From Halocalculus aciditolerans (GTDB lineage: Archaea > Halobacteriota > Halobacteria > Halobacteriales > Halobacteriaceae), in contig NZ_BMPG01000004.1 in NCBI RefSeq assembly GCF_014647475.1, positions 62,001-126,000 of the forward strand: a stretch of DNA of 64,000 bases, given 5' to 3'. Under the pieces are notes generated by a model. It was not told where the DNA came from and ran no database searches. It worked only from the letters and a program-made list of their open reading frames with translations. Positions 36,539-56,431 of this stretch are shown here, piece by piece. Within the stretch, counting starts at the first letter, position 1. Every line of letters begins with the position of its first letter. The position numbers and the translations under genes are program-made.

Positions 36539-36678
36539 CGAGCGTTCACAGCCGACGAACCCGATTCTCAGATGTCGGAGAGAGCCGTTTCGACGCGTGC
36601 ACCAGAACCGTGTAGGCGGCAGCACAGAAAGTGTCCGTATGAGCGATGTCTCTCGCGGTCGCGGGGGAGGGGAGTTCG

Positions 36679-37857
36679 ATGGGTAGGCCGCGGCCGGCGT
36701 CACGACTGCTCGCGCTCGCCGGCCTCGGTATCGTGCTCCTGAGTGGCGTGCCGACGGCGGCGGCGCACGGCGGCGGCCACTACCTGCCGGGCGTCCACCA
36801 GTGGTACGCGCTCGTCCCGCTCCTCGGCGGGCTCGGCGTCGTCGCCGCGGGCGTCTTCCTGCGACGCAGCGACTACGCCGTCGGCGTCGGCCGGCTCCTC
36901 ACCGTCGTCTTCTTCGGACTGGTCGTCGCCGCGTTCGGCGCGGTCGCGCTCGTCCAGCTCTCGCCCGTGCTCTCCCTCAACGTGAGCCAGCGACCGCTCA
37001 CGTCCGAGACGCTCACGGCGTTCCGCCTCATCGCCGGCGTCGCCGTCATCGCCGGGAGTTTCGCTGTCGGCCGCCTCCGCTGGCCGGAGCGACCGCGCTA
37101 CGCCGTCCTCGGCGTCCTCCTCGGCGCGTGGGTCGTCTACCCCGCCGCCTTCGACAACCTCGGCCTCCAATCCTCGGTGAATCCCGCGGGCTACGTCCTC
37201 TTCGCGAGCGTGCTCGCCGGCGTCGCCTACATCGCCTACCGGGACGCGCGCCACGCGCTCGCCGCGCTCGCCGCGGACCCGCTCGCGCGACGCTTCGGCG
37301 TCGCCGTCGGCCTCCTCGCCGCCGTCTTCTTCATGTTCTCTGCGGGCATCCTCATCATCTTCCCCGACCCCACTGGAAACATCTCGTGGGCGCACTCCTT
37401 CGTCCGCGTCCTCCCGGTCAAAGACCCGCTCGTCTACTGGCCCGCCGTCGAGTTCTGGTTCCCCAGCCTCCCCCTCACCGGCTACCTCTCTCTCGGCATG
37501 ATGGCGCTCGTCCTCTCGCTCGCCGCGCTCGTCGGCGTCAACGCCGCCATCGTCGCCTACCAGTGGCACTGCCGGGACGACGCCGGATTCAACGGCGCGG
37601 CCGGCGCGGCCGCCATCGCCGCGCCGAACGCCTGCTGTTGTTGCGGCCCCGTCCTCTCCCAGCTCGCCGTCGTCGCCCTCGGCCCCACGGCCGCGATGCC
37701 CTTCTACTGGCTCTTCATCGACGTCTCCTCGCCCTTCGGCGTGCTCTTCTTCGCCGCGAGCTTCGCGCTCCTCCTCGGGAACCTCGTCCGCTTCGCGAAC
37801 GCCGTCACGCCCACCGTCGCCGACGCCGCACCGAACGCCGCGGACGCGCCAGCCTGA
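36679..37857 (+). CDS. polytopic membrane protein with a CCCC motif, function unknown
   Basis: 392 residues, about nine helices; N-terminal signal-like helix and AAAHGGGHYLPGVHQ, then a Cys run PNACCCCGPVLSQLAV near residue 320, followed by FYWLFIDVSSPFG. Four consecutive Cys next to a helix are rare and suggest a metal or redox site near the membrane. The ATG at 36679 is chosen because hydrophobic coding follows directly; an earlier in-frame ATG (36646) is possible. It lies beside the metal-type operon and cassette 2. Confidence 0.65.
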   Translation: MGRPRPASRLLALAGLGIVLLSGVPTAAAHGGGHYLPGVHQWYALVPLLGGLGVVAAGVFLRRSDYAVGVGRLLTVVFFGLVVAAFGAVALVQLSPVLSLNVSQRPLTSETLTAFRLIAGVAVIAGSFAVGRLRWPERPRYAVLGVLLGAWVVYPAAFDNLGLQSSVNPAGYVLFASVLAGVAYIAYRDARHALAALAADPLARRFGVAVGLLAAVFFMFSAGILIIFPDPTGNISWAHSFVRVLPVKDPLVYWPAVEFWFPSLPLTGYLSLGMMALVLSLAALVGVNAAIVAYQWHCRDDAGFNGAAGAAAIAAPNACCCCGPVLSQLAVVALGPTAAMPFYWLFIDVSSPFGVLFFAASFALLLGNLVRFANAVTPTVADAAPNAADAPA

Positions 37858-38640: not shown

Positions 38641-39528
38641 CTACTCCGTCTGCGTCTCGGTGAGACCTTGGAGGTCGTACTCGTTCCCGGTGGCGACTTC
38701 GAGGAGGTCTTCGAGGAAGCCCGCGAGCTCGGGGAGAACGCGGACGAGGCCGAGCGTGATGGCGACGAGAACGACGAGTGAGAGCGACTGGGCGATGATG
38801 CGGTCGGCGACGATGTAGGAGACCATGTACTGGTCGACGCCGAAGACCGGGCGGATGAGAGCCTGGAAGAACGGCCCGGCGAACCACTGCTCGCCGTTCG
38901 AGAGCGCGATGAACGCGACGCGGAGGACGTTCAGCGCGTAGATGATGGGGATGGCGACGCCGAACGCGATGGCGCGGCGGCGGAGCGGCGCGTCGACGGC
39001 CGCGATGAGCCCCGTCACCACCGCCATACTCCCGACGCCCGTGCACGCGAGGAGCACCGTCGTCACGTAGCGCTGCTCGGGCGTCACCATCAGGAAGCTA
39101 TCGTTCGGGATGTTGTACGTGATGATCTCGGGGTCGTAGCCGAGCGTGTGCAGGATCCAGTCGACGTGCGCGACGATGGCGTGCACGCCGACGACGTGCA
39201 GGTAGCGTACCGTCAGGAAGGGCAGGTAGACGATACCCATGACCGCGATCGCCTTCTGCAGCGTCGCCATCCCGTTCCGGCCGTTGTACGCGAGGTACGC
39301 CGCGTAGAGACAGCCCGGAACGGCGAGCGCGCTCAACACGCCCTCGATGGGCGACGCCTGCACGAACGCGAAATGGTCGATCAGCAGGCCCCAGAACACC
39401 GCGAAGGACGCCCAGGCCGCAACCGACACGTAGCGAGCGACCGCCTCACGTCGACCCGCGAGCACCACCGAACCCACGAACAACGCGATGACGACCCACG
39501 CGAGCCGGTCAGTCAACGCGAGAGACAT
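38641..39528 (-). CDS. artA: archaeosortase A
   Basis: 295 residues, about eight helices. The exosortase/archaeosortase signature is complete: active-site Cys in LLACTGVGSMAVV (near 161), Arg in NVLRVAFIALS (near 201) and a final His/Asp-type position further on. ArtA cleaves the PGF-CTERM tail and joins the protein to a lipid. Two PGF-CTERM proteins lie directly after it (39822 and 41583), including the S-layer protein. An acidic tail ends the protein. Confidence 0.95.
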   Translation of the reverse strand: MSLALTDRLAWVVIALFVGSVVLAGRREAVARYVSVAAWASFAVFWGLLIDHFAFVQASPIEGVLSALAVPGCLYAAYLAYNGRNGMATLQKAIAVMGIVYLPFLTVRYLHVVGVHAIVAHVDWILHTLGYDPEIITYNIPNDSFLMVTPEQRYVTTVLLACTGVGSMAVVTGLIAAVDAPLRRRAIAFGVAIPIIYALNVLRVAFIALSNGEQWFAGPFFQALIRPVFGVDQYMVSYIVADRIIAQSLSLVVLVAITLGLVRVLPELAGFLEDLLEVATGNEYDLQGLTETQTE

Positions 39529-39821: not shown

Positions 39822-41342
39822 CTACTGCCGCCGTCCGATAAGCATGACGAGTACGAGTGCCATTAGGCCTGCTGTAACCTCGAAACCGGGTGTCGTCGTG
39901 CTCGTGGTCGTATCACTCGTGGTTGTATCCCTCGTGGTCTCGGTCGACGTCGACGTTGTCTCCGCTTCCTCCGTGGTGCTCTCGTTCGCCAGACTCACAG
40001 CCGTCTCATTGGGCGTCTGTTTCGTTCCGTTCGCAGTGAAGTTTACCGTTCCCACGCTCTGATTCGTCACGTTCACCGTCTGATTCGTCGCATTCACCGT
40101 CTGATTCGTCGCGTTCACCGTCAGATTGGTGGTCGTCGTTTGATCGCTATGATGGCTGGAGCTGCCGCTATTTCCGTTACCGTGGTCGTCTTCCTCGTTT
40201 CCGTCCGTCGAATCGGTCTCGGTTCCATCACCCCACGACTCAGGATGGAGAGCCTTCGCGAGGGTCGTAATCGGCTGAACGACGCGGGGTGCAGGCTGGT
40301 TCAAATAGTTGTTATCGAGAACCACAACGTTCCCGTTCTTCACCGCGTCAGTGCTGTTGTACGCCGAAGTTTTCGGAACAGACGGATTCTGACTATTCCG
40401 TACGATCCACTCGGGGTTCTGCTGAACAATGACCTCACTACTAATCTCCTTGTATCCAGTGATTCCTGCCTCAGCGGCGACGTTCGTCCCGCCAGCGAGC
40501 GTGATGATGTTATCGATGAACGTCTCGCTCCCGGCAGTGTACCCGTAGAAGGTGTAGAGGACGCCTGGCCGGTCAGTTCCGGAGGTCGCTTCATCGACGG
40601 TGGCGAGCCGAGATTCCATCGTGGAAACGGTCTCACTCGCTCCGTCGCAGTTCCCGGTGAGGCGGCCCGTCGCGTGAGTTTGCTCCTTGATATCCGCGAT
40701 ACTCTCCGCGGCCTCATAGTGGTAAACGGTAAGTCCGGAGTCACGGAGCGTACCCACGGTCTCGTCTGAAATCGTATCAGGGGCGAGGACCAAGTCTGGT
40801 TCGAGGGAGACGACCTTCTCTTGGTCGACATAGCTCATCCCGGATCCGGACACGTCTGCTTTCTCGCTCGCGCCGTCAAGATAACTCGCAGATCCCGTCA
40901 CCCCCACAACGCGGTCCGCAGCACCAATCTCCCAGACAATCTGCGCCGCACTCGGACTAAGCGTCACAATACGTTCCGGGGGCGTATCCATCGTGACGAC
41001 CGTTCCTGTCGCATCGGTCTCCGAGACCGGATACTCACAGGTCGTCTCAATCGGGCTTGCCCCGCTAGATGTCGTCGTCGACGTCGTTGTCGTCGATGAC
41101 GTACTGGTCGTCGTCGTTGACGTCGATGTCGTCGTTGACGTCGTTGTCGATGACGTGCTGGTCGTCGTCGTCGATGTCGTCGTCGTGGTCGTTGTCGTTG
41201 CAGTGTTCCCCGCCGCGGCAACGGGCCCAGCGGTAACCGCTTCCGGTCCACTTGCGCCTGTCGCTCCGACCGAACCAGTGATTCCCCCACTGAACACTGA
41301 GCCAATGACCACGAAGGCGAGAAGAAGGGCTCTAAGTCTCAC
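39822..41342 (-). CDS. BtuF/FecB-type substrate-binding protein anchored by PGF-CTERM
   Basis: 506 residues, GTG start. Signal peptide (1-26), Thr/Ser-rich link (about 48-92), then the class III binding domain with TPPERIVTLSPSAAQIVWEI and DRPGVLYTFYGYTAGSETF, ending about 365. After this come a His/Asp-rich stretch, a run of N-glycosylation sites (NLTVNATNQT, NATNQTVNVT), another Thr link and TTTPGFEVTAGL then a helix and RRQ, the ArtA signal. Such proteins are normally lipoproteins; ligand likely cobalamin or ferric siderophore. No permease is adjacent. Confidence 0.85.
   Translation of the reverse strand: MRLRALLLAFVVIGSVFSGGITGSVGATGASGPEAVTAGPVAAAGNTATTTTTTTTSTTTTSTSSTTTSTTTSTSTTTTSTSSTTTTSTTTSSGASPIETTCEYPVSETDATGTVVTMDTPPERIVTLSPSAAQIVWEIGAADRVVGVTGSASYLDGASEKADVSGSGMSYVDQEKVVSLEPDLVLAPDTISDETVGTLRDSGLTVYHYEAAESIADIKEQTHATGRLTGNCDGASETVSTMESRLATVDEATSGTDRPGVLYTFYGYTAGSETFIDNIITLAGGTNVAAEAGITGYKEISSEVIVQQNPEWIVRNSQNPSVPKTSAYNSTDAVKNGNVVVLDNNYLNQPAPRVVQPITTLAKALHPESWGDGTETDSTDGNEEDDHGNGNSGSSSHHSDQTTTTNLTVNATNQTVNATNQTVNVTNQSVGTVNFTANGTKQTPNETAVSLANESTTEEAETTSTSTETTRDTTTSDTTTSTTTPGFEVTAGLMALVLVMLIGRRQ
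41079..41202. repeat. (GTC)-rich trinucleotide stretch coding for the Thr/Ser link
   Basis: Runs of gtcgtc with interspersed gac and gat; on the coding strand Thr and Ser codons. Such runs can change length by slippage, altering the link between the signal and the binding domain. Confidence 0.6.
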
Positions 41343-41359
41343 ATCTCTACGAGAGACTT

Positions 41360-41377
41360 GATAAACAAAAGTTTATC
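41360..41377 (-). promoter_or_regulatory. inverted repeat GATAAAC-AAAA-GTTTATC upstream of the BtuF-like gene
   Basis: Perfect 7-bp arms with a 4-bp centre, 18-35 bp upstream of the GTG start, covering the expected TATA position. It looks like an operator rather than a terminator. It has the arm/spacer size of the DtxR-like sites at 51092 and 52342 but a different core. Confidence 0.5.
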
Positions 41378-41530
41378 TAAGACAAGTTTAGTTGTGGGTC
41401 GGGTTTGAGAGACTCAATAACGGAGTATCGCCACGCAAGCGGAGTGCTGCAGTGCTCACTCCCGGGTTTTCGGTGACCCATTCAGAGGCACGGCATCGCA
41501 GGAGCTAACGCTGCTCGGTGTAGCGCGCCA

Positions 41531-41582: not shown

Positions 41583-44219
41583 TTAGTTGTCGCGGCGGAG
41601 CGCGATGAGCGCAGCGCCGAGGAGCGCGATGAGACCAACAGCAACGCCGAAGCCGGGCGTGCTGGTAGACGTCGTCGTGGACGTCGACGTCGTGCCGCTG
41701 GACGTCGTCGTCGTGGACGTCGTCGTGGACGTCGTCGTGGACGTCGTCGTGGACGTCGTCGTGGACGTCGTGGTCGTGCTCGTGCTCGTGCCAGCGTCTT
41801 CAACTACCATACCGTCAACGTCGTCAACGTCCTCGGAGAGGGCGTTGATGGAGACGGTGAAGTTGGTGCCGACCTGCGTGTCGCTGAAGTCGAAGTCGCC
41901 GGCGAAGGTGCCGTCAGCGGTCGCGTTGACGGAGGAGTCCGTCTTGATGAACGGGTTCTGGTCAGAGTCCGACTGCGCGCGGATCGTGAACTCGTTGCCA
42001 GGCGCCCAGTTCGTCGTACCGCTGATGGTCTGGTTCGCTGCGGGCTCGACAACGATCGTGTCGTTGTCGTTCGTGTCGAAGGACGTGTCAGCGTCTTCGA
42101 CGCTGAAGTCCGTGTTAACGTGCTTGAGCTTCTTGGAGATCTTGCTCTCCTTCGGGATCGTGACGTTAACTTCGTACTCGTCTTCAACTTCGACGTCGTT
42201 GCCACCGTCGAACGTCTCAGCGGTGGACGGTTTGAACGCGACGAAGAGCGAGTTGTTCTTCTGGTCAACGACGGTGTTCGCAGTAGCCGTGACGTTGATG
42301 ACCTTGTTAGGCGCGTTCGGAGCGGGGTTCGTCTGCGTGACGTTGATGACGAACTCGCTGTTCGTCACGTCAAGCTCGCTGCCACCGTTGGAAGTTGCCT
42401 GAAGGTCCTGAAGGTCCTTGCTTTCGAGCGCGCCGAAGAAGCCGCTACCTTCGATCTGAAGGACGACGAGGTCGCTCGTGGATTCGTCCTCAACCTTCGT
42501 GATGGAGGAGTCCTCGACGAGCGTCTCGTTGTCGATCGCCGAGTAGACGTCGGCCTTCTCGTCGAGCGTGGTGTCGCTCGCAGTCGTCCACGTCGTGACA
42601 CCCGTCAGGGAGCTGGACTGGACGAACAGGGAGCCGAGTGCGTCGGGCGAGTCGAACGTGTTGTTGTAGTCGTCGATGTCGTTAGCGTCGGTGCTCGTGT
42701 TGGTAGTGACGCCAATGTCGTAGCCGTCACTGCTGGTCGCGAGGAGACCATCGAGGTCGCCCTCCTCGTAGACGTTCGAGAGCTTGTCGTCGCTCGTGAC
42801 GGAAAGGACGTCGCCACCGCTGGTGGACAGGTTCTGCGGGTCGTCACCAGCGTTGTAGGTGTTGAACTGGACGTACACCTTGCCGTCATCGTTGTCGTCG
42901 ACGATCGTACCGGCGATCTTGTAGTTCGCGTCATCGGAACCGACCGAGACGTGAGCGGTGTCCGTATTCTGCAGGTTGACCGTGATGTTCGCGACGTCAC
43001 CCTGACCGACCGTGTAGGTGCTCGGGCTGAGGCTGACCTTCTCGTCGCCAGCTTTCTTCACGTTGAGCGTGTCCATGTCCTCAGCGGACGTGTCGGTCAC
43101 GTCGAACGTGAAGTTGTGTTCGCCCGTCGGCGTCTTCGGGCTGGAGTCCTGCGCGTTCAGCGTGTAGGAGACGTCGTTGCTACCGGAGATGACGAGGATG
43201 TCATCGCTGGAGTACTGGTCCTCGGTGACGTCCGAGTACGCGCTGCTCGGGAAGAGGTTTTCGAGGTCAGTGTAGTCCATTCCGCTCGCGGAGACGTTAA
43301 CCGCGTAGTCACCGCGGTTGGAGTCGAGATCGAGGTCGACCGTCTCTCCACGCGTGACGTTGTCGCTGTCGAAGGACGCGGAGAAGGACTGGGTTGCGAC
43401 CTCCCAGGTCGTGGCACCAGCGTTACTGAAGGTGGAGCCAGCGCTCCCGCCCGAGATCTGGACGTATTCGCCGTTAGGAGCTTCGATGACGTAGTCACCG
43501 TCGAGTTCGGACGTGCCAAGGACGTAGACACCGTCGTCACCCGTGGTGAACTGGGTCGCCAGGCCGCCGACGACCTCGTCGCCAGCGTCGTAGCTACGAA
43601 CCTCGTAGGTGGCGTCAGCCTGACCGCTGAAGTAGAGGTCCTGGCCCTGCCAGAACGTCGTGTTCGTGTCGAGCTTGTCGTCGAACTCGTAGTCGCCCTG
43701 GTTCGGCGCGTTGACCGAGATGGAGCCGAGCTGAGCGTTGTTCACGTCGTCACCGTTCTGGTCGGTGATGTCAGCCGTGATAGCAACGTTCGTGTCAGTG
43801 TTCACGTTGGGGTACTGAATCGTGGCACCCTCAACGGTGATGTCGGCGTCGACGTTGGAGCTAGAAGGCTGAACCTCGAAAGCGATGTCGCCATTGTTGG
43901 TGACGAAGCCGCTCTTGGAGGTGCCAATGCTGGAGGCGATGTTATTCACGCTCGTGAACTCAGCACCGTTGCTGAGCGAAAGCGTGACGTTAACCGTGCC
44001 ACCGCTATTGGCGCTGTTCAGATTCGGTGCTGTGAATGCGATATCGTGCGTCACCGACGCTCCAGAGTTAACGGGAGCAGACGGGCTGATGTTGACATCC
44101 GTCGGAGAGTTCGCAGCAGCGGCGCCACCGGAGAAGGCGACGACGCCCGCGAAGACGGACACAACCATCAGCGCGGTGAGGAACACCGCACGCGTTTTGG
44201 TATTAGTGTCGTTTGTCAT
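41583..44219 (-). CDS. csg: S-layer (cell surface) glycoprotein with PGF-CTERM tail
   Basis: 878 residues. N-terminal signal MTNDTNTKTRAVFLTALMVV type ending AAAAN (about 36). Large, acidic, beta-rich extracellular region with many NxS/T sites. A Thr/Ser-rich stretch (about 817-848), STPGFGVAVG and a final helix then RRDN form the archaeosortase signal. This is the main cell wall protein. Base use is less GC-rich than its neighbours and Lys/Asn/Thr rich, a normal S-layer feature. Promoter with long leader and a clear terminator present. Confidence 0.95.
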   Translation of the reverse strand: MTNDTNTKTRAVFLTALMVVSVFAGVVAFSGGAAAANSPTDVNISPSAPVNSGASVTHDIAFTAPNLNSANSGGTVNVTLSLSNGAEFTSVNNIASSIGTSKSGFVTNNGDIAFEVQPSSSNVDADITVEGATIQYPNVNTDTNVAITADITDQNGDDVNNAQLGSISVNAPNQGDYEFDDKLDTNTTFWQGQDLYFSGQADATYEVRSYDAGDEVVGGLATQFTTGDDGVYVLGTSELDGDYVIEAPNGEYVQISGGSAGSTFSNAGATTWEVATQSFSASFDSDNVTRGETVDLDLDSNRGDYAVNVSASGMDYTDLENLFPSSAYSDVTEDQYSSDDILVISGSNDVSYTLNAQDSSPKTPTGEHNFTFDVTDTSAEDMDTLNVKKAGDEKVSLSPSTYTVGQGDVANITVNLQNTDTAHVSVGSDDANYKIAGTIVDDNDDGKVYVQFNTYNAGDDPQNLSTSGGDVLSVTSDDKLSNVYEEGDLDGLLATSSDGYDIGVTTNTSTDANDIDDYNNTFDSPDALGSLFVQSSSLTGVTTWTTASDTTLDEKADVYSAIDNETLVEDSSITKVEDESTSDLVVLQIEGSGFFGALESKDLQDLQATSNGGSELDVTNSEFVINVTQTNPAPNAPNKVINVTATANTVVDQKNNSLFVAFKPSTAETFDGGNDVEVEDEYEVNVTIPKESKISKKLKHVNTDFSVEDADTSFDTNDNDTIVVEPAANQTISGTTNWAPGNEFTIRAQSDSDQNPFIKTDSSVNATADGTFAGDFDFSDTQVGTNFTVSINALSEDVDDVDGMVVEDAGTSTSTTTTSTTTSTTTSTTTSTTTSTTTTSSGTTSTSTTTSTSTPGFGVAVGLIALLGAALIALRRDN
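41660..41790. repeat. (GTC)-rich trinucleotide stretch in the S-layer gene
   Basis: Consists of gtcgtcgtggac-type units (gtcgtggacgtc repeated), coding for Thr/Ser runs before the PGF motif. Several 12-bp units are identical, so the length may vary between strains. Confidence 0.65.
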
Positions 44220-51113: not shown

Positions 51114-52250
51114 ATGGACCGACGGACCTTCCTCGGCGTCGGCGGCGCGGCGCTCGGCGCGACGCTCGCCGGCTGCTCGGGCAGCGGCGGCGACACCACG
51201 ACTAGCTCGACCACCAGCCAGACGACGACCACGACCACGCAGACCACGACGGAAGACGCCTCGTACACCGTCTCGATGGCCCCGATGGGCGACGTCACCT
51301 TCGACAGCGTCCCCGAGACCTGGGTCGCGAACAACGGGAGCTACGCCGACATGGGCGTCGCCCTCGGCGTCGACGAGCCGAAGGCGCTCTGGCTCGCGAA
51401 CCGCTGGCACACGAACTACTACGACGGTATCGACGGCGTCTCCGCCGACAAGAGCGACACCATCTCTCTCTATCAGGACGGCGTGTCGAAGGAGCGCTAC
51501 TACGCCCTCGACGCCGACGTCCACGTGCAGGACCCGAACTTCCTGATGAACCGCTTCAAGGGCTGGTCGGAGGCCGACGTCGACGAGGTCGCGGAGAACA
51601 TCGCGCCGTTCTTCGGGAACGCCAGCTTCTCTCGGACCTACTCCTGGCACGAGGACTACCAGTACTACACGCTCTACGAGGCCTTCGAGAAGGTCGCCCA
51701 GCTCTTCCAGCGCACCGACCGCTACGAGGCGTTCGCGAGCCTCCACGAGGACGTCCAGTCGAACCTCGACTTCGTCCCGACGAGCGAGTCGGAGCGCCCG
51801 CGCGTCGCTATCCTCTGGCCGACGTCGAGCGAACCGACCTCCTTCTACCCGTACCTCGTCGGCGACGGCACGAGCTACAAGCAGTGGCGCGACCTGAACG
51901 TCCGCGACGCGCTCGCCGAAACCGACGTCCAGGACTTCCACTCCGGCCGCGGCGAAGTCGACTACGAGACCCTGCTCAAAGTCGACCCCGACGTCCTCCT
52001 CCTCCGCGCCAACGAGTCCAAGACCGCCGCCGAGTTCGAGGACTCCGTCGTCGCCTTCATGGAAGAACACGAGACGGCGAGCGAACTCACCGCCGTGAAG
52101 AACGGCGACGTCTACCGCGGCGGCCCGCTCTACCAGGGCCCCATCGCGAACCTCGTCCTCACCGAGCGCGGCGCACAGCAGCTCTACGGCGTCGAAGACG
52201 AGCTCTTCGACCGCGGGCGCGTCGCCGACATCGTCAGCGGCGACATCTAA
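51114..52250 (+). CDS. iron(III)/siderophore ABC transporter substrate-binding lipoprotein
   Basis: 378 residues. Tat motif DRRTFLG and lipobox ATLAGC (Cys21), a Thr/Ser link, then a class III binding fold: MAPMGDVTFDSVPETWVANN, VDPDVLLLRANES and GDVYRGGPLYQG. It captures a ferric chelate outside and delivers it to the permease. First gene of the importer; iron control by the operator upstream. Confidence 0.88.
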   Translation: MDRRTFLGVGGAALGATLAGCSGSGGDTTTSSTTSQTTTTTTQTTTEDASYTVSMAPMGDVTFDSVPETWVANNGSYADMGVALGVDEPKALWLANRWHTNYYDGIDGVSADKSDTISLYQDGVSKERYYALDADVHVQDPNFLMNRFKGWSEADVDEVAENIAPFFGNASFSRTYSWHEDYQYYTLYEAFEKVAQLFQRTDRYEAFASLHEDVQSNLDFVPTSESERPRVAILWPTSSEPTSFYPYLVGDGTSYKQWRDLNVRDALAETDVQDFHSGRGEVDYETLLKVDPDVLLLRANESKTAAEFEDSVVAFMEEHETASELTAVKNGDVYRGGPLYQGPIANLVLTERGAQQLYGVEDELFDRGRVADIVSGDI

Positions 52251-52341
52251 CCACCGGCCGTGTCGCCGTGACCCGGTCGGCGGGCGGCGACGCTCCCACG
52301 ACAGGCCCCTGCATGCGTCTTCGTTCTCCGACCGCAATGGA

Positions 52342-52365
52342 TTTAGGTAGCCCTAAACGATATAG
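52342..52365 (+). promoter_or_regulatory. second DtxR/SirR-like operator and TATA before the permease gene
   Basis: Inverted repeat tttagg-tagc-cctaaa (52342-52357) directly before a TATA-like gatatag (52359-52365). Here the operator lies upstream of, and against, the TATA/BRE region, unlike the first site. It gives the permease/ATPase pair its own iron-controlled promoter. Confidence 0.68.
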
Positions 52366-52417
52366 TGGTGATGGACGTGGCGTCGCGAACACCAGAGACT
52401 CGACCGCGGAGGACACC

Positions 52418-53530
52418 GTGACCTCCGAAGAGACGAGTACCGCGACACGCGACGGCCACCCCTTCGTCGACCCGCGGAACCAGCGCCTCGCCGGTCTCGT
52501 CGTCGGCAGCACGCTCATCGTACTCGTCGGCGCATTCATTCAGGTGTCACAGGGCTCCTACGGGACGCCCTTCGGCGTCACCTACCACGTGCTCACGAAC
52601 CCGCACATCCTCTTCAACCCGGACGTCTGGGCGGCCTTCTTCACCGGGAGCGACCTCCCCGAGTGGTTCAGCCGGGACGCCCTCATCATCTGGAGCCTCC
52701 GGATGCCGCGCGTCTTCGTCGCCGCGCTCGTCGGTGTCAACCTCGCGATCTCCGGCGCGATCTTCCAGGCAATCACGCGGAACGAGCTCGCGAGCCCGTA
52801 CGTGCTCGGCGTCTCCGGCGGCGCGGGCCTCGCCGTCCTCGTCACGCTCGTCTTCTTCGCGAGCGCGACCTACGTCCTCCCGTTCGCCGCCGCGGTCGGC
52901 GGCGCGCTCGCCTTCCTCCTCGTCTACGCCATCGCCTGGAAGCGCGGCACGAGTCCCGTTCGCCTCGTCCTCGCCGGCGTCGTCGTCGCCACCGTCTTCC
53001 AATCCCTCCAAACGGGATTATTCTACTTCCTCGACAGCACCGGCGCGGTGAAGACCGCAATCGCGTGGACGACCGGCTCGCTCACCGGCGTCGGCTGGCA
53101 GCAGGTCCGCCTCGTCGCCCTCCCGACGCTCATCGTTCTCCCCGTCGCCGTCGCCGCTGCCCGCCACCTCAACGTCCTCCTCCTCGGCGAGAAGACCGCG
53201 CGCTCCCTCGGCATGAGCGTCGAACGCATCCGCTTCGGCCTCTCCGGCCTCGCCATCCTCGCCGCGGCCGCCGCCGTCTCCGTCGCCGGCCTCGTCGGCT
53301 TCGTCGGCCTCGTCGTCCCCCACGTCGTCCGCACCGTCGTCGGGAGCGACTACAAACGCCTCGTCGTCGGCTGCATCTTCGCCGGCCCCGCCCTCATGGT
53401 CGCCGCCGACGTCATCGCCCGCCTCGCCCTCAACCCCGTCCAGGTCCCCGTCGGCGTCGTCACCGGCGTCATCGGCGGCCCCTACTTCCTCTACCTCATG
53501 CGACGCCACGAAGACTTCAGCGCCCTCTAA
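52418..53530 (+). CDS. iron/siderophore ABC transporter permease (FecCD type)
   Basis: 370 residues, about ten helices. Family motifs RMPRVFVAALVGVNLAISGA, NELASPYVLGVSGGAGLAVL and GLVGFVGLVVPHVVR are those of FecCD permeases. GTG at 52418 is preferred because the operator and TATA lie at 52342-52365; an in-frame ATG at 52337 is an alternative that would put the operator inside the gene. Followed by the ATPase after 6 nt. Confidence 0.9.
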   Translation: MTSEETSTATRDGHPFVDPRNQRLAGLVVGSTLIVLVGAFIQVSQGSYGTPFGVTYHVLTNPHILFNPDVWAAFFTGSDLPEWFSRDALIIWSLRMPRVFVAALVGVNLAISGAIFQAITRNELASPYVLGVSGGAGLAVLVTLVFFASATYVLPFAAAVGGALAFLLVYAIAWKRGTSPVRLVLAGVVVATVFQSLQTGLFYFLDSTGAVKTAIAWTTGSLTGVGWQQVRLVALPTLIVLPVAVAAARHLNVLLLGEKTARSLGMSVERIRFGLSGLAILAAAAAVSVAGLVGFVGLVVPHVVRTVVGSDYKRLVVGCIFAGPALMVAADVIARLALNPVQVPVGVVTGVIGGPYFLYLMRRHEDFSAL

Positions 53531-53536
53531 CCACCC

Positions 53537-54403
53537 ATGTCACAGACCCAACCCAACACCACGGACGACGCGCACTACGAACCTTCGTCGAACGCCGCGA
53601 GCACGCCGTCGGAGTCTGACGCGAAACTCCACGCGAACGACCTCCAACTCGGCTATCCCGGCCTCGACGAACCCGTCATCGACACCGAGACGCTCGTCAT
53701 CCCGGAAGGCGAAGTCACGGCGCTCGTCGGCCCGAACGGCAGCGGGAAGAGTACGCTACTGAAGTCGCTCGCCCGCCACCTCGAACCCGAAGCCGGCGAC
53801 GTCCTCCTCGACGGCCGCGAGCTCGCCGACTTCGGGTCGAAGGAGTTCGCCCGCGAGCTCGGCATGCTCGCCCAGCAGAACACCGCCCCCGAGGGCATCA
53901 CCGTCGAGGAGCTCATCCACCACGGGCGCTACCCACACAAGGGCTTCTTCGACGGGCGAACGGAAGAAGACGAGACGGCCGTGGAGCGCGCGCTCGAACT
54001 CGCGGGCGTCACTCACCTCCGCGACGTCGAAATCGGGAGCCTCTCCGGTGGCCAGCGCCAGCTCGTCTGGATCGCGATGGCGCTCGCCCAGGAGACCGAA
54101 ACCCTCCTCCTCGACGAGCCCACGACCTACCTCGACCTCCGCCACCAGCTTCAGGTGATGGACGTCATTCGCACGCTCAACGAGGAGCGCGGCGTCACCG
54201 TCTGCGTCGTCCTCCACGACATCACGCAGGCCGCGCGGTTCGCCGACTACCTCGTCGCCCTCCAGGACGGCGACGTCTACGACTGGGGTCGCCCCGAAGA
54301 CGTCGTCTCCGAGCAGCTCCTCGCCGAGGTCTTCGGTGTCGAAGCCGCCGTCGAGTACGGCGCGGAACCCACCATCACGCCGAAGCGCGCGCTCGACGAC
54401 TGA
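53537..54403 (+). CDS. iron/siderophore ABC transporter ATP-binding protein
   Basis: 288 residues. Walker A GPNGSGKSTLLK (about 65-76), Q-loop LAQQNTAPEG, signature LSGGQRQLVWIAMAL (about 168-182), Walker B LLLDEPTTYLD and H-loop VVLHDITQAA. It powers import by the FecCD permease before it. The N-terminal 30 residues are an acidic haloarchaeal extension. Confidence 0.95.
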   Translation: MSQTQPNTTDDAHYEPSSNAASTPSESDAKLHANDLQLGYPGLDEPVIDTETLVIPEGEVTALVGPNGSGKSTLLKSLARHLEPEAGDVLLDGRELADFGSKEFARELGMLAQQNTAPEGITVEELIHHGRYPHKGFFDGRTEEDETAVERALELAGVTHLRDVEIGSLSGGQRQLVWIAMALAQETETLLLDEPTTYLDLRHQLQVMDVIRTLNEERGVTVCVVLHDITQAARFADYLVALQDGDVYDWGRPEDVVSEQLLAEVFGVEAAVEYGAEPTITPKRALDD

Positions 54404-54505: not shown

Positions 54506-56431
54506 GTGTCCGCCGATCAGGAGAGCGTCTTCGACGAGTACCGCGAGTCGGTCGACCGGCCGCTCTACCGACTCTTCACGGCGTACGGCCGCGACGTCTG
54601 GGAGTGGTTCGCGCTGGGGATGGTGGCGAACGTCGTCGCGCGCGTCGGGAGCCTCCTCCCGCCGCTCGTGCTCGGCGCGGCGCTCGACAGCATCTTCACC
54701 GGGGACTCACCCTACACACTCCCGCTCGTTCCCGCGAGCTGGCTCCCCGCGACCGACCCCGCGCAGTTCCGCTTCTCAGTCATCGTCATCACGGGCGCGT
54801 TCGTCTCGACGGCCGTGTTCACGTGGGTGTACGGCGTCGCCGCGAACACTTTCGCCCACCGCGTGATGCACGAGGTCCGCACGGACTCCTTCGAGAAGAT
54901 GCAGAACCTCGACATGGCGTTCTTCGACGACAAACAGACGGGCGAAGTAATGAGTATTCTCAACAACGACGCGAACAACCTCGAAGTCTTCCTGGATAAT
55001 GCCCTCCAGAACTCCGCGCGCCTCGTCGTCATGGCCGTCGGCGTGCTCGGCATCATGGTGTGGCTGAACGCCCAGCTCGCGCTCGTGATGCTCGTCGCCC
55101 TCCCCGTCCTCGTCGGCCTCACCGCGTGGTTCATGCGCGTCGTCGTCCCCCGCTACGCCCGCGAACGCGCGAACGTCGGCCACCTCAACACCCGCCTCGA
55201 GAACTCGCTCTCCGGTGTCGAACTCGTGAAAACCACCGGGAGCGAAGCGTACGAAGTCGGGCGCGTCCGAACCGCGTCGAAGAACCTCTACGACGCCACG
55301 ATGGCCGTCCTCCGCCTGAACTTCGTCTACCGGCCGGGGATGGAGCTCGTCGCCGGCCTCGCGTTCGCCGCGACCTTCGCCATCGGCGGCTTCTGGCTCT
55401 TCGCCGGCCCGCCGCGCTTCTTCACCGGCACGCTCTCCGCCGGCGCGTTCGTCACGTTCATCCTCCTCACCCAGCGCATCGTCACGCCGCTCGCCGAAGT
55501 CTCCAACATCGTCGACCAGTACGAGAACGCGAAGGCCTCCAGCGAGCGCGTGTTCGGCCTCATGGACATCCCCGCCCGCATCCGAGACGCCGAGGACGCC
55601 ACCGAACTCACGGACGTCGACGGCGACGTCGAATACGACGGCGTCACCTTCGGCTACGTCGACGAATCGCGCCGCGATTCGTCTGCCAACCAGAACGCAG
55701 AGCGTTCTGGTGAGGAGGACGAGGTCGTCCTCGAAGACGTCTCCTTCCACGCGAACCCCGGCGACACCGTCGCGCTCGTCGGCCCGACCGGAGCCGGAAA
55801 ATCCACGGTCGTAAAACTCCTCCTCCGCCTCTACGACCCGAACGAGGGGAGTATTCGCCTCGACGGTCACGACCTCCGTGACGTCACCGTCGACAGCCTC
55901 CGCGACGCGGTCGGATACGTCGGGCAGGACACCTTCCTCTTCGACGGCACCGTGAGAGACAACATCCGCTACGGTCACTTCGACGCCGGCGACGACGCCG
56001 TCGTCGAGGCGGCGAAAGCCGCGGAAGCCCACGCGTTCATCCAAGAACTCCCCGACGGCTACGAGACCCGCGTCGGCGAGCGCGGGGTGAAACTCTCCGG
56101 CGGGCAGCGCCAGCGCGTCAGCATCGCCAGAACGATCCTTCAGGATCCGCCCGTGCTCGTCCTCGACGAAGCCACGAGCGCCGTCGACACCGAGACCGAA
56201 CTCGCCATCCAGCACAGCCTCGACGCCCTCAGCGAAGACCGCACCACCCTCAGTATCGCCCACCGCCTCTCGACGGTGACTGACGCCGACCTCATCCTCG
56301 TCGTCGAAGACGGCCGCGTCGTCGAACGCGGCACCCACGACGCCCTCGTCGACGAAGACGGGCTCTACGCCGCGCTCTGGGACGCCCAGACCGGCGACAC
56401 CCGCGCGCTCGAACAGGAACTCCTCGAGTAG
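54506..56431 (+). CDS. ABC transporter with fused membrane and ATPase domains (exporter type)
   Basis: 641 residues; GTG start at 54506. Six-helix membrane domain (about 20-320) with FAHRVMHEVRTDSFEKMQNL, then an ATPase domain: Walker A GPTGAGKSTVVKLLL (about 427-441), signature LSGGQRQRVSIA (about 531-542), Walker B VLVLDEATSAVDTE. Works as a dimer to export lipids, drugs or similar. An unusual segment at about 386-402 corresponds to two palindromes in the DNA. Confidence 0.92.
   Translation: MSADQESVFDEYRESVDRPLYRLFTAYGRDVWEWFALGMVANVVARVGSLLPPLVLGAALDSIFTGDSPYTLPLVPASWLPATDPAQFRFSVIVITGAFVSTAVFTWVYGVAANTFAHRVMHEVRTDSFEKMQNLDMAFFDDKQTGEVMSILNNDANNLEVFLDNALQNSARLVVMAVGVLGIMVWLNAQLALVMLVALPVLVGLTAWFMRVVVPRYARERANVGHLNTRLENSLSGVELVKTTGSEAYEVGRVRTASKNLYDATMAVLRLNFVYRPGMELVAGLAFAATFAIGGFWLFAGPPRFFTGTLSAGAFVTFILLTQRIVTPLAEVSNIVDQYENAKASSERVFGLMDIPARIRDAEDATELTDVDGDVEYDGVTFGYVDESRRDSSANQNAERSGEEDEVVLEDVSFHANPGDTVALVGPTGAGKSTVVKLLLRLYDPNEGSIRLDGHDLRDVTVDSLRDAVGYVGQDTFLFDGTVRDNIRYGHFDAGDDAVVEAAKAAEAHAFIQELPDGYETRVGERGVKLSGGQRQRVSIARTILQDPPVLVLDEATSAVDTETELAIQHSLDALSEDRTTLSIAHRLSTVTDADLILVVEDGRVVERGTHDALVDEDGLYAALWDAQTGDTRALEQELLE
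55663..55710. repeat. two adjacent perfect palindromes inside the ABC exporter gene
   Basis: cgaatcgcg-c-cgcgattcg (55663-55681) and ccagaacgc-aga-gcgttctgg (55690-55710), each with 9-bp arms. They code for a polar linker (ESRRDS then NQNAERSG) between strands of the ATPase N-terminus. Looks like inserted small palindromic elements that kept the frame. Confidence 0.7.

Follow-up and report, generated by a model that had tools for sequence, protein, structure and literature searches.

A second, BtuCD-unlinked BtuF-like protein of Halocalculus aciditolerans as a candidate surface-displayed capture protein

Within the window, a stretch of 64,000 nucleotides from Halocalculus aciditolerans, a gene on the minus strand encodes the second BtuF-like substrate-binding protein of this genome. 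Its type of tail is ordinary among haloarchaea; the unusual point is that a second copy, unlinked to BtuCD, occurs in an odd build and in an odd place. The reading that we consider best, at slightly less than even odds (about 0.45), is that of a lipid-anchored, stalked capture protein displayed at the coat and feeding a distant BtuCD.

Gene and protein architecture

The gene, the parts of its product and its two immediate neighbours are as follows (window coordinates).

39822-41342, minus strand: whole gene for the second TIGR04281 (BtuF-like) protein, 506 aa, GTG start, intact open reading frame
41262-41342, minus strand: Sec-like secretion signal, residues 1 to about 27, without lipobox Cys (extent read from the sequence)
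41052-41207, minus strand: Thr/Ser link, residues 46-97 (52 residues), 90% Thr plus Ser, predicted disordered
40227-41051, minus strand: class III (Peripla_BP_2) binding domain, residues 98-372, with E175 and E303
39978-40127, minus strand: cluster of 11 N-glycosylation sequons, residues 406-455
39825-39893, minus strand: PGF-CTERM tail, residues 484-506, made of PGFE, a hydrophobic stretch and RR
38641-39528, minus strand: artA, the immediate downstream neighbour, coding for archaeosortase A and present once in the genome (TIGR04125, 275.2 bits)
41583-44219, minus strand: the immediate upstream neighbour, coding for an S-layer-like glycoprotein (halo_sig_pep, BGTF domain, DUF7827, PGF-CTERM)

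A sequence-only reading of this DNA had described a class III binding domain held between Thr/Ser-rich links, with clustered glycosylation sites and a PGF-CTERM ending, and this description holds. The protein matches PF01497 (101.1 bits, residues 125-345) and scores 394.6 bits against TIGR04281 (residues 102-404), over the cut-off of 325, which makes it a member of that family. After the binding domain come an acidic stretch, the clustered sequons (all but one of the 12 N-x-S/T sequons of the protein), a second Thr/Ser-rich link and the PGF tail, so that the C-terminal region amounts to 135 residues, compared with a median of 58 in BtuCD-linked copies. The tail scores 19.3 bits with PF18204, just over the cut-off of 18.8, and 19.6 bits with TIGR04126, under the cut-off of 24.5. 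Its PGFE is divergent: the residue following PGF is Gly in 37/38 linked and 24/28 unlinked proteins that bear the motif. A PGF motif, a hydrophobic stretch and a basic end, together with artA in the genome, are nonetheless the features of an archaeosortase A substrate. A lipoprotein identity was ruled out, as there is no lipobox cysteine and the first Cys is residue 102. Upstream of the gene, in the AT-rich stretch at 41343-41380 (minus strand), TTTATC lies some 23 nt ahead of the GTG start codon, which might be expected of a leaderless transcript with its own promoter.

The archaeosortase-type tail had been thought unusual for a class III binding protein, which is not the case. TIGR04281 (peripla_PGF_1) is an existing NCBI family, named 'PGF-CTERM-anchored ABC transporter substrate-binding protein', which we detected in all 26 genomes of the taxonomic family at E 0.001 (over the cut-off in 25/26) and in 290/292 genomes of the class at E 1e-50 (over the cut-off in 284/292). 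The survey of relatives proposed in the earlier reading gives the same answer: an exact PGF tail ends 35/42 BtuCD-linked and 28/31 unlinked proteins and is thus the standard build, the norm for haloarchaeal BtuF.

Two BtuF copies and the origin of the second

The source genome (G000) encodes two BtuF copies, a point absent from the earlier reading, as is the position of artA next downstream. The canonical copy lies on another contig (G000:C3:222319-223293), where its gene is divergent to a BtuC-like permease gene beyond which lies a BtuD-like ATPase gene. The binding domains of the two copies are 71% identical, and a tree of 79 domains places the window copy nearest to two canonical BtuFs, the one encoded in the same genome and that of G004 (support 100/100). 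No orthologue of the window copy was found in the other genomes among the 26 of the family searched; its best matches outside its own genome are canonical BtuFs, that of G004 being the top one (69%). A search of genome contigs for relatives retrieved solely bacterial ones, at 26-27% identity.

Since the window copy branches before the split between the canonical copies of its own genome and G004, a recent duplication within the genome was rejected. Either a lateral gain from a relative or an older duplication with loss elsewhere is possible. The GC3 of the window gene is low (0.68, whereas six other genes from this genome lie at 0.84-0.96), which suggests a recent gain and would favour the first of these origins.

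Gene neighbourhood

The S-layer-like gene, the window BtuF gene and artA lie on the same strand. The S-layer-like product encoded upstream reaches 216.8 bits with NF041335, below the cut-off of 1100. Of 20 relatives examined, 8 have a PGF-tailed open reading frame whose end lies at most 260 nt upstream of artA, with a gap of about 257 nt in G004, the nearest relative by BtuF; no BtuF match was found in the artA stretches of any of the 20. The window gene therefore looks inserted into a conserved neighbourhood.

No BtuC or BtuD match was found in the 17 kb around the window gene (L024), which accordingly is not beside btuC or btuD. The earlier claim that no permease or ATPase is near stands for about 10 kb but not beyond, where a complete FecCD-type importer (lipobox binding protein, permease and ATPase) is encoded at 51114-54403 on the plus strand. 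This importer is an unlikely partner of the window BtuF because it has a lipobox binding protein of its own. An ABC exporter-like gene follows it at 54506-56431. Elsewhere in the window, a 403-aa membrane protein with a CCCC motif, encoded at 36646-37857 (plus strand), has no match in NCBIfam and none above a cut-off in Pfam.

Fold and ligand pocket

A structure model, built from only 10 sequences, has high confidence for most of residues 101-372 and pLDDT below 50 for residues 35-96 and 373-498, the links. Residues 103-372 match class III binding proteins of the PDB, the best matches being the iron and haem binding proteins 4hn9 (Z 26.6) and 2r7a (Z 26.0), followed by the BtuFs of Vibrio cholerae (5ysc, Z 23.5, rmsd 2.9, 239 aligned) and Escherichia coli (1n2z, Z 22.9, rmsd 2.9, 232 aligned, about 22% identity over the aligned part). 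As iron and haem binders score slightly above the BtuFs, the fold does not settle the ligand. The window protein shares with E. coli BtuF the class III fold and the residues at E72 and E202, but the E. coli-type model NF002894 gives it 67.1 bits, under its cut-off of 234, and while E. coli BtuF is soluble and periplasmic the window copy is predicted to be lipid-anchored.

The window copy retains each of the 29 positions whose conservation reaches 95% or more among the 42 BtuCD-linked domains. Its E175 and E303 occupy the positions of E. coli BtuF E72 and E202, which we take to be the glutamates docking on BtuC; Glu is found at these positions in 37/37 and 37/37 unlinked domains, the window copy included, and in 41/42 and 40/42 linked ones. 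The pocket, presumably lined in E. coli BtuF by Y50, W66 and W85, is less alike. The Y50 position is Ser in the window copy and Tyr or Phe in 34/42 linked domains, so that its ligand may differ, and in the domain alignment W66 and W85 are not conserved in these haloarchaeal proteins, whose corrinoid binding therefore rests on the naming of the family. Between the window copy and the canonical copy of its genome dN/dS is about 0.14, a value that indicates purifying selection only roughly since dS is near saturation and the GC3 of the two genes differs. Together, the conserved positions, the docking glutamates and dN/dS speak for a functional protein that still interacts with BtuCD.

Unlinked copies and long scaffolds among relatives

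Thirty-one of the 292 class genomes have at least two TIGR04281 matches at E 1e-50, tandem domains being counted apart. These 31 genomes and G023 were searched again (32 in all), and the neighbourhoods were fetched together with those of further family genomes; the sample thus consists of multi-copy genomes and a selection of family genomes and is not a random draw. A copy was called linked when a BtuC tblastn match at E 1e-20 or better lay within 3 kb. The final set holds 42 linked domains and 37 unlinked ones, the latter spread over 31 proteins. L167, L173 and L187 were left out of the tree as fragmentary, and the set does not include the second G233 copy. Among copies near contig ends, L120 (G003) was kept among the 31 unlinked proteins but excluded from the pair test, while L185, whose first domain is cut by the contig start, L201 and L207 were retained.

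In the tree, well-supported branches carry no fewer than 11 switches between the linked and the unlinked label. Unlinked domains comprise an old clade of 15, separate copies in G000, G002, G018, G023, G108, G172, G185 and G221, a tandem group in family f4 and the single copies of G020 and G003. C-terminal extensions of 100 aa or more, a threshold picked after the lengths were seen, are present in 15/31 unlinked and 3/42 linked proteins; a Fisher test on these counts ignores relatedness, and a tree-aware pair test was made as well. Of 10 independent pairs taken from well-supported branches, an average of 8.2 have the long tail on the unlinked side, and none shows the opposite (median p 0.008). 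Two binding domains in one frame occur in 7/31 unlinked and 0/42 linked proteins. PGF-pre-PGF domains over the cut-off were found in L166, L155 and the linked L121 among 10 proteins scanned. In G002 (L118, 6356-9508, plus strand) a single open reading frame of 1051 aa combines a signal, a BtuF-like domain, then a stretch of S-layer-glycoprotein sequence that contains DUF7827 and BGTF, and a PGF tail. Stalked builds are also found in two BtuCD-linked copies, those of G005 and G006, each beside its own BtuCD, and a stalk alone consequently does not mean display beyond the S-layer.

In the openly licensed literature searched, as far as its texts were accessible, we found no archaeal BtuF that is BtuCD-unlinked, stalked, tandem or fused to S-layer sequence; the accessible parts of PMC6719526, PMC8305020, PMC12175726, PMC5997447 and PMC8660799 hold nothing on haloarchaeal BtuF.

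Proposed function and alternatives

We infer a chain of export, anchoring, display, capture and transfer by combining sequence, neighbourhood and published facts. The second BtuF would be exported by Sec, and its tail would be cleaved by the neighbouring ArtA, leaving the protein anchored to lipid. The stalk, presumably glycosylated, may position the binding domain at the S-layer or carry it through, and a corrinoid-like ligand could be captured there. The ligand would then be passed in trans to the BtuCD of the genome, either by direct docking of the second copy or via the canonical BtuF below the S-layer and from there to BtuCD. The S-layer of Haloferax volcanii, according to the accessible part of PMC8640222, has pores of about 13 Å, is nearly closed and strongly restricts access to the membrane, which provides a reason to capture a bulky cofactor outside. 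In this species, PGF-tailed proteins are known to be processed by ArtA and anchored to lipid (PMC7157517, in the part accessible). The accessible text of PMC8241124 reports N-glycosylated ArtA substrates and ABC transporter components, with no BtuF named among them there, and that of PMC8875312 names, in an S-layer extract, a carbohydrate-type binding protein of another family than TIGR04281.

The earlier suggestion of a surface scavenger that hands on its ligand is hence supported indirectly, by the unlinked spare copy, the long stalks, the S-layer-like and artA neighbours, the docking glutamates and the scaffolds of relatives; localisation, ligand and transfer are predictions. Counting against it are the Ser at the Y50 position, the lack of conserved W66 and W85, the divergent PGFE tail, the stalks of the linked G005 and G006 copies, the lack of an orthologue in the other family genomes searched and the low GC3.

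A plainer account is that of a redundant second BtuF working like the canonical one, beneath the S-layer on a long flexible tether and without any role in crossing it. Membership of the same family, the identity between the two copies, the retained docking glutamates and the stalks of the linked G005 and G006 copies are all in keeping with it, but long scaffolds track unlinking across the tree and the fusion in G002 would put the domain in the coat itself; we hold this account to be a serious though rather unlikely one. The duplicate might also have switched to another ligand (haem, a siderophore, another corrinoid) and serve a different FecCD-type permease, of which the genome has four. The Ser at the Y50 position and the iron and haem binders heading the structural matches point this way, yet those Z values are so close that they cannot separate ligands, the near-invariant positions are all kept and the tree puts the window copy beside BtuCD-linked BtuFs, which makes such a switch improbable. 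Very improbable, in our estimate, is a surface decoration without transport role, that is, an adhesin, decoy or coat component that has kept the fold only: mucin-like links, the place beside an S-layer-like gene, the G002 fusion and the tandem domains of other lineages would suit it, whereas the apparent purifying selection on the domain and the docking glutamates in every unlinked domain would be needless for mere decoration.

Compared with the TIGR04281 BtuFs at large, the proposed capture protein shares the fold, the tail type and the docking glutamates, but is a second copy away from BtuCD with a long N-terminal Thr/Ser link as well as a longer C-terminal region. With the haloarchaeal S-layer glycoprotein, itself an ArtA substrate, it has in common a Sec signal, sequons, a Thr-rich spacer, PGF-CTERM and a place in the same gene neighbourhood, although a ligand-binding domain takes the place of coat domains. 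Its proposed role resembles that of BtuG of Bacteroides, a surface-exposed lipoprotein that captures B12 and feeds a transporter (PMC6143338, in the part accessible). BtuG, however, is described there as a seven-bladed beta-propeller with a lipobox and the outer-membrane BtuB as partner, and common ancestry is not indicated. The folded part of the window protein is of the class III type and no beta-propeller.

More broadly, and tentatively, haloarchaea may repeatedly have turned spare BtuFs into coat-level corrinoid receptors, by way of mucin-like stalks, tandem heads or fusion to S-layer-like sequence, as an archaeal counterpart of BtuG that gets a bulky cofactor across a tight S-layer; we consider this possible, with the balance tilted against it. 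If it were so, the passage of large nutrients through a near-closed S-layer would become testable by single-gene deletions in tractable haloarchaea. It would also make archaeosortase anchoring a means of building nutrient receptors, and show that ligand-binding domains can be carried by an S-layer-like protein.

Other features of unlinked copies

The old clade of 15 unlinked copies (L157, L164, L170, L205 and others) has tails below 100 aa throughout. At the position of E. coli BtuF R246 its members carry Arg, which is thus present in 15/37 unlinked domains and in 0/42 linked ones, the latter all having Gln. Another PF01497-type protein is encoded within about 1 kb in 12/15 of them. Tandem two-domain BtuF-like proteins unlinked from BtuCD include L155, L181, L194, L201, L207 and L209; their domains mostly have Gln or nothing acidic at the start of the N-lobe helix, a site that is Asp or Glu in most copies with a single domain.
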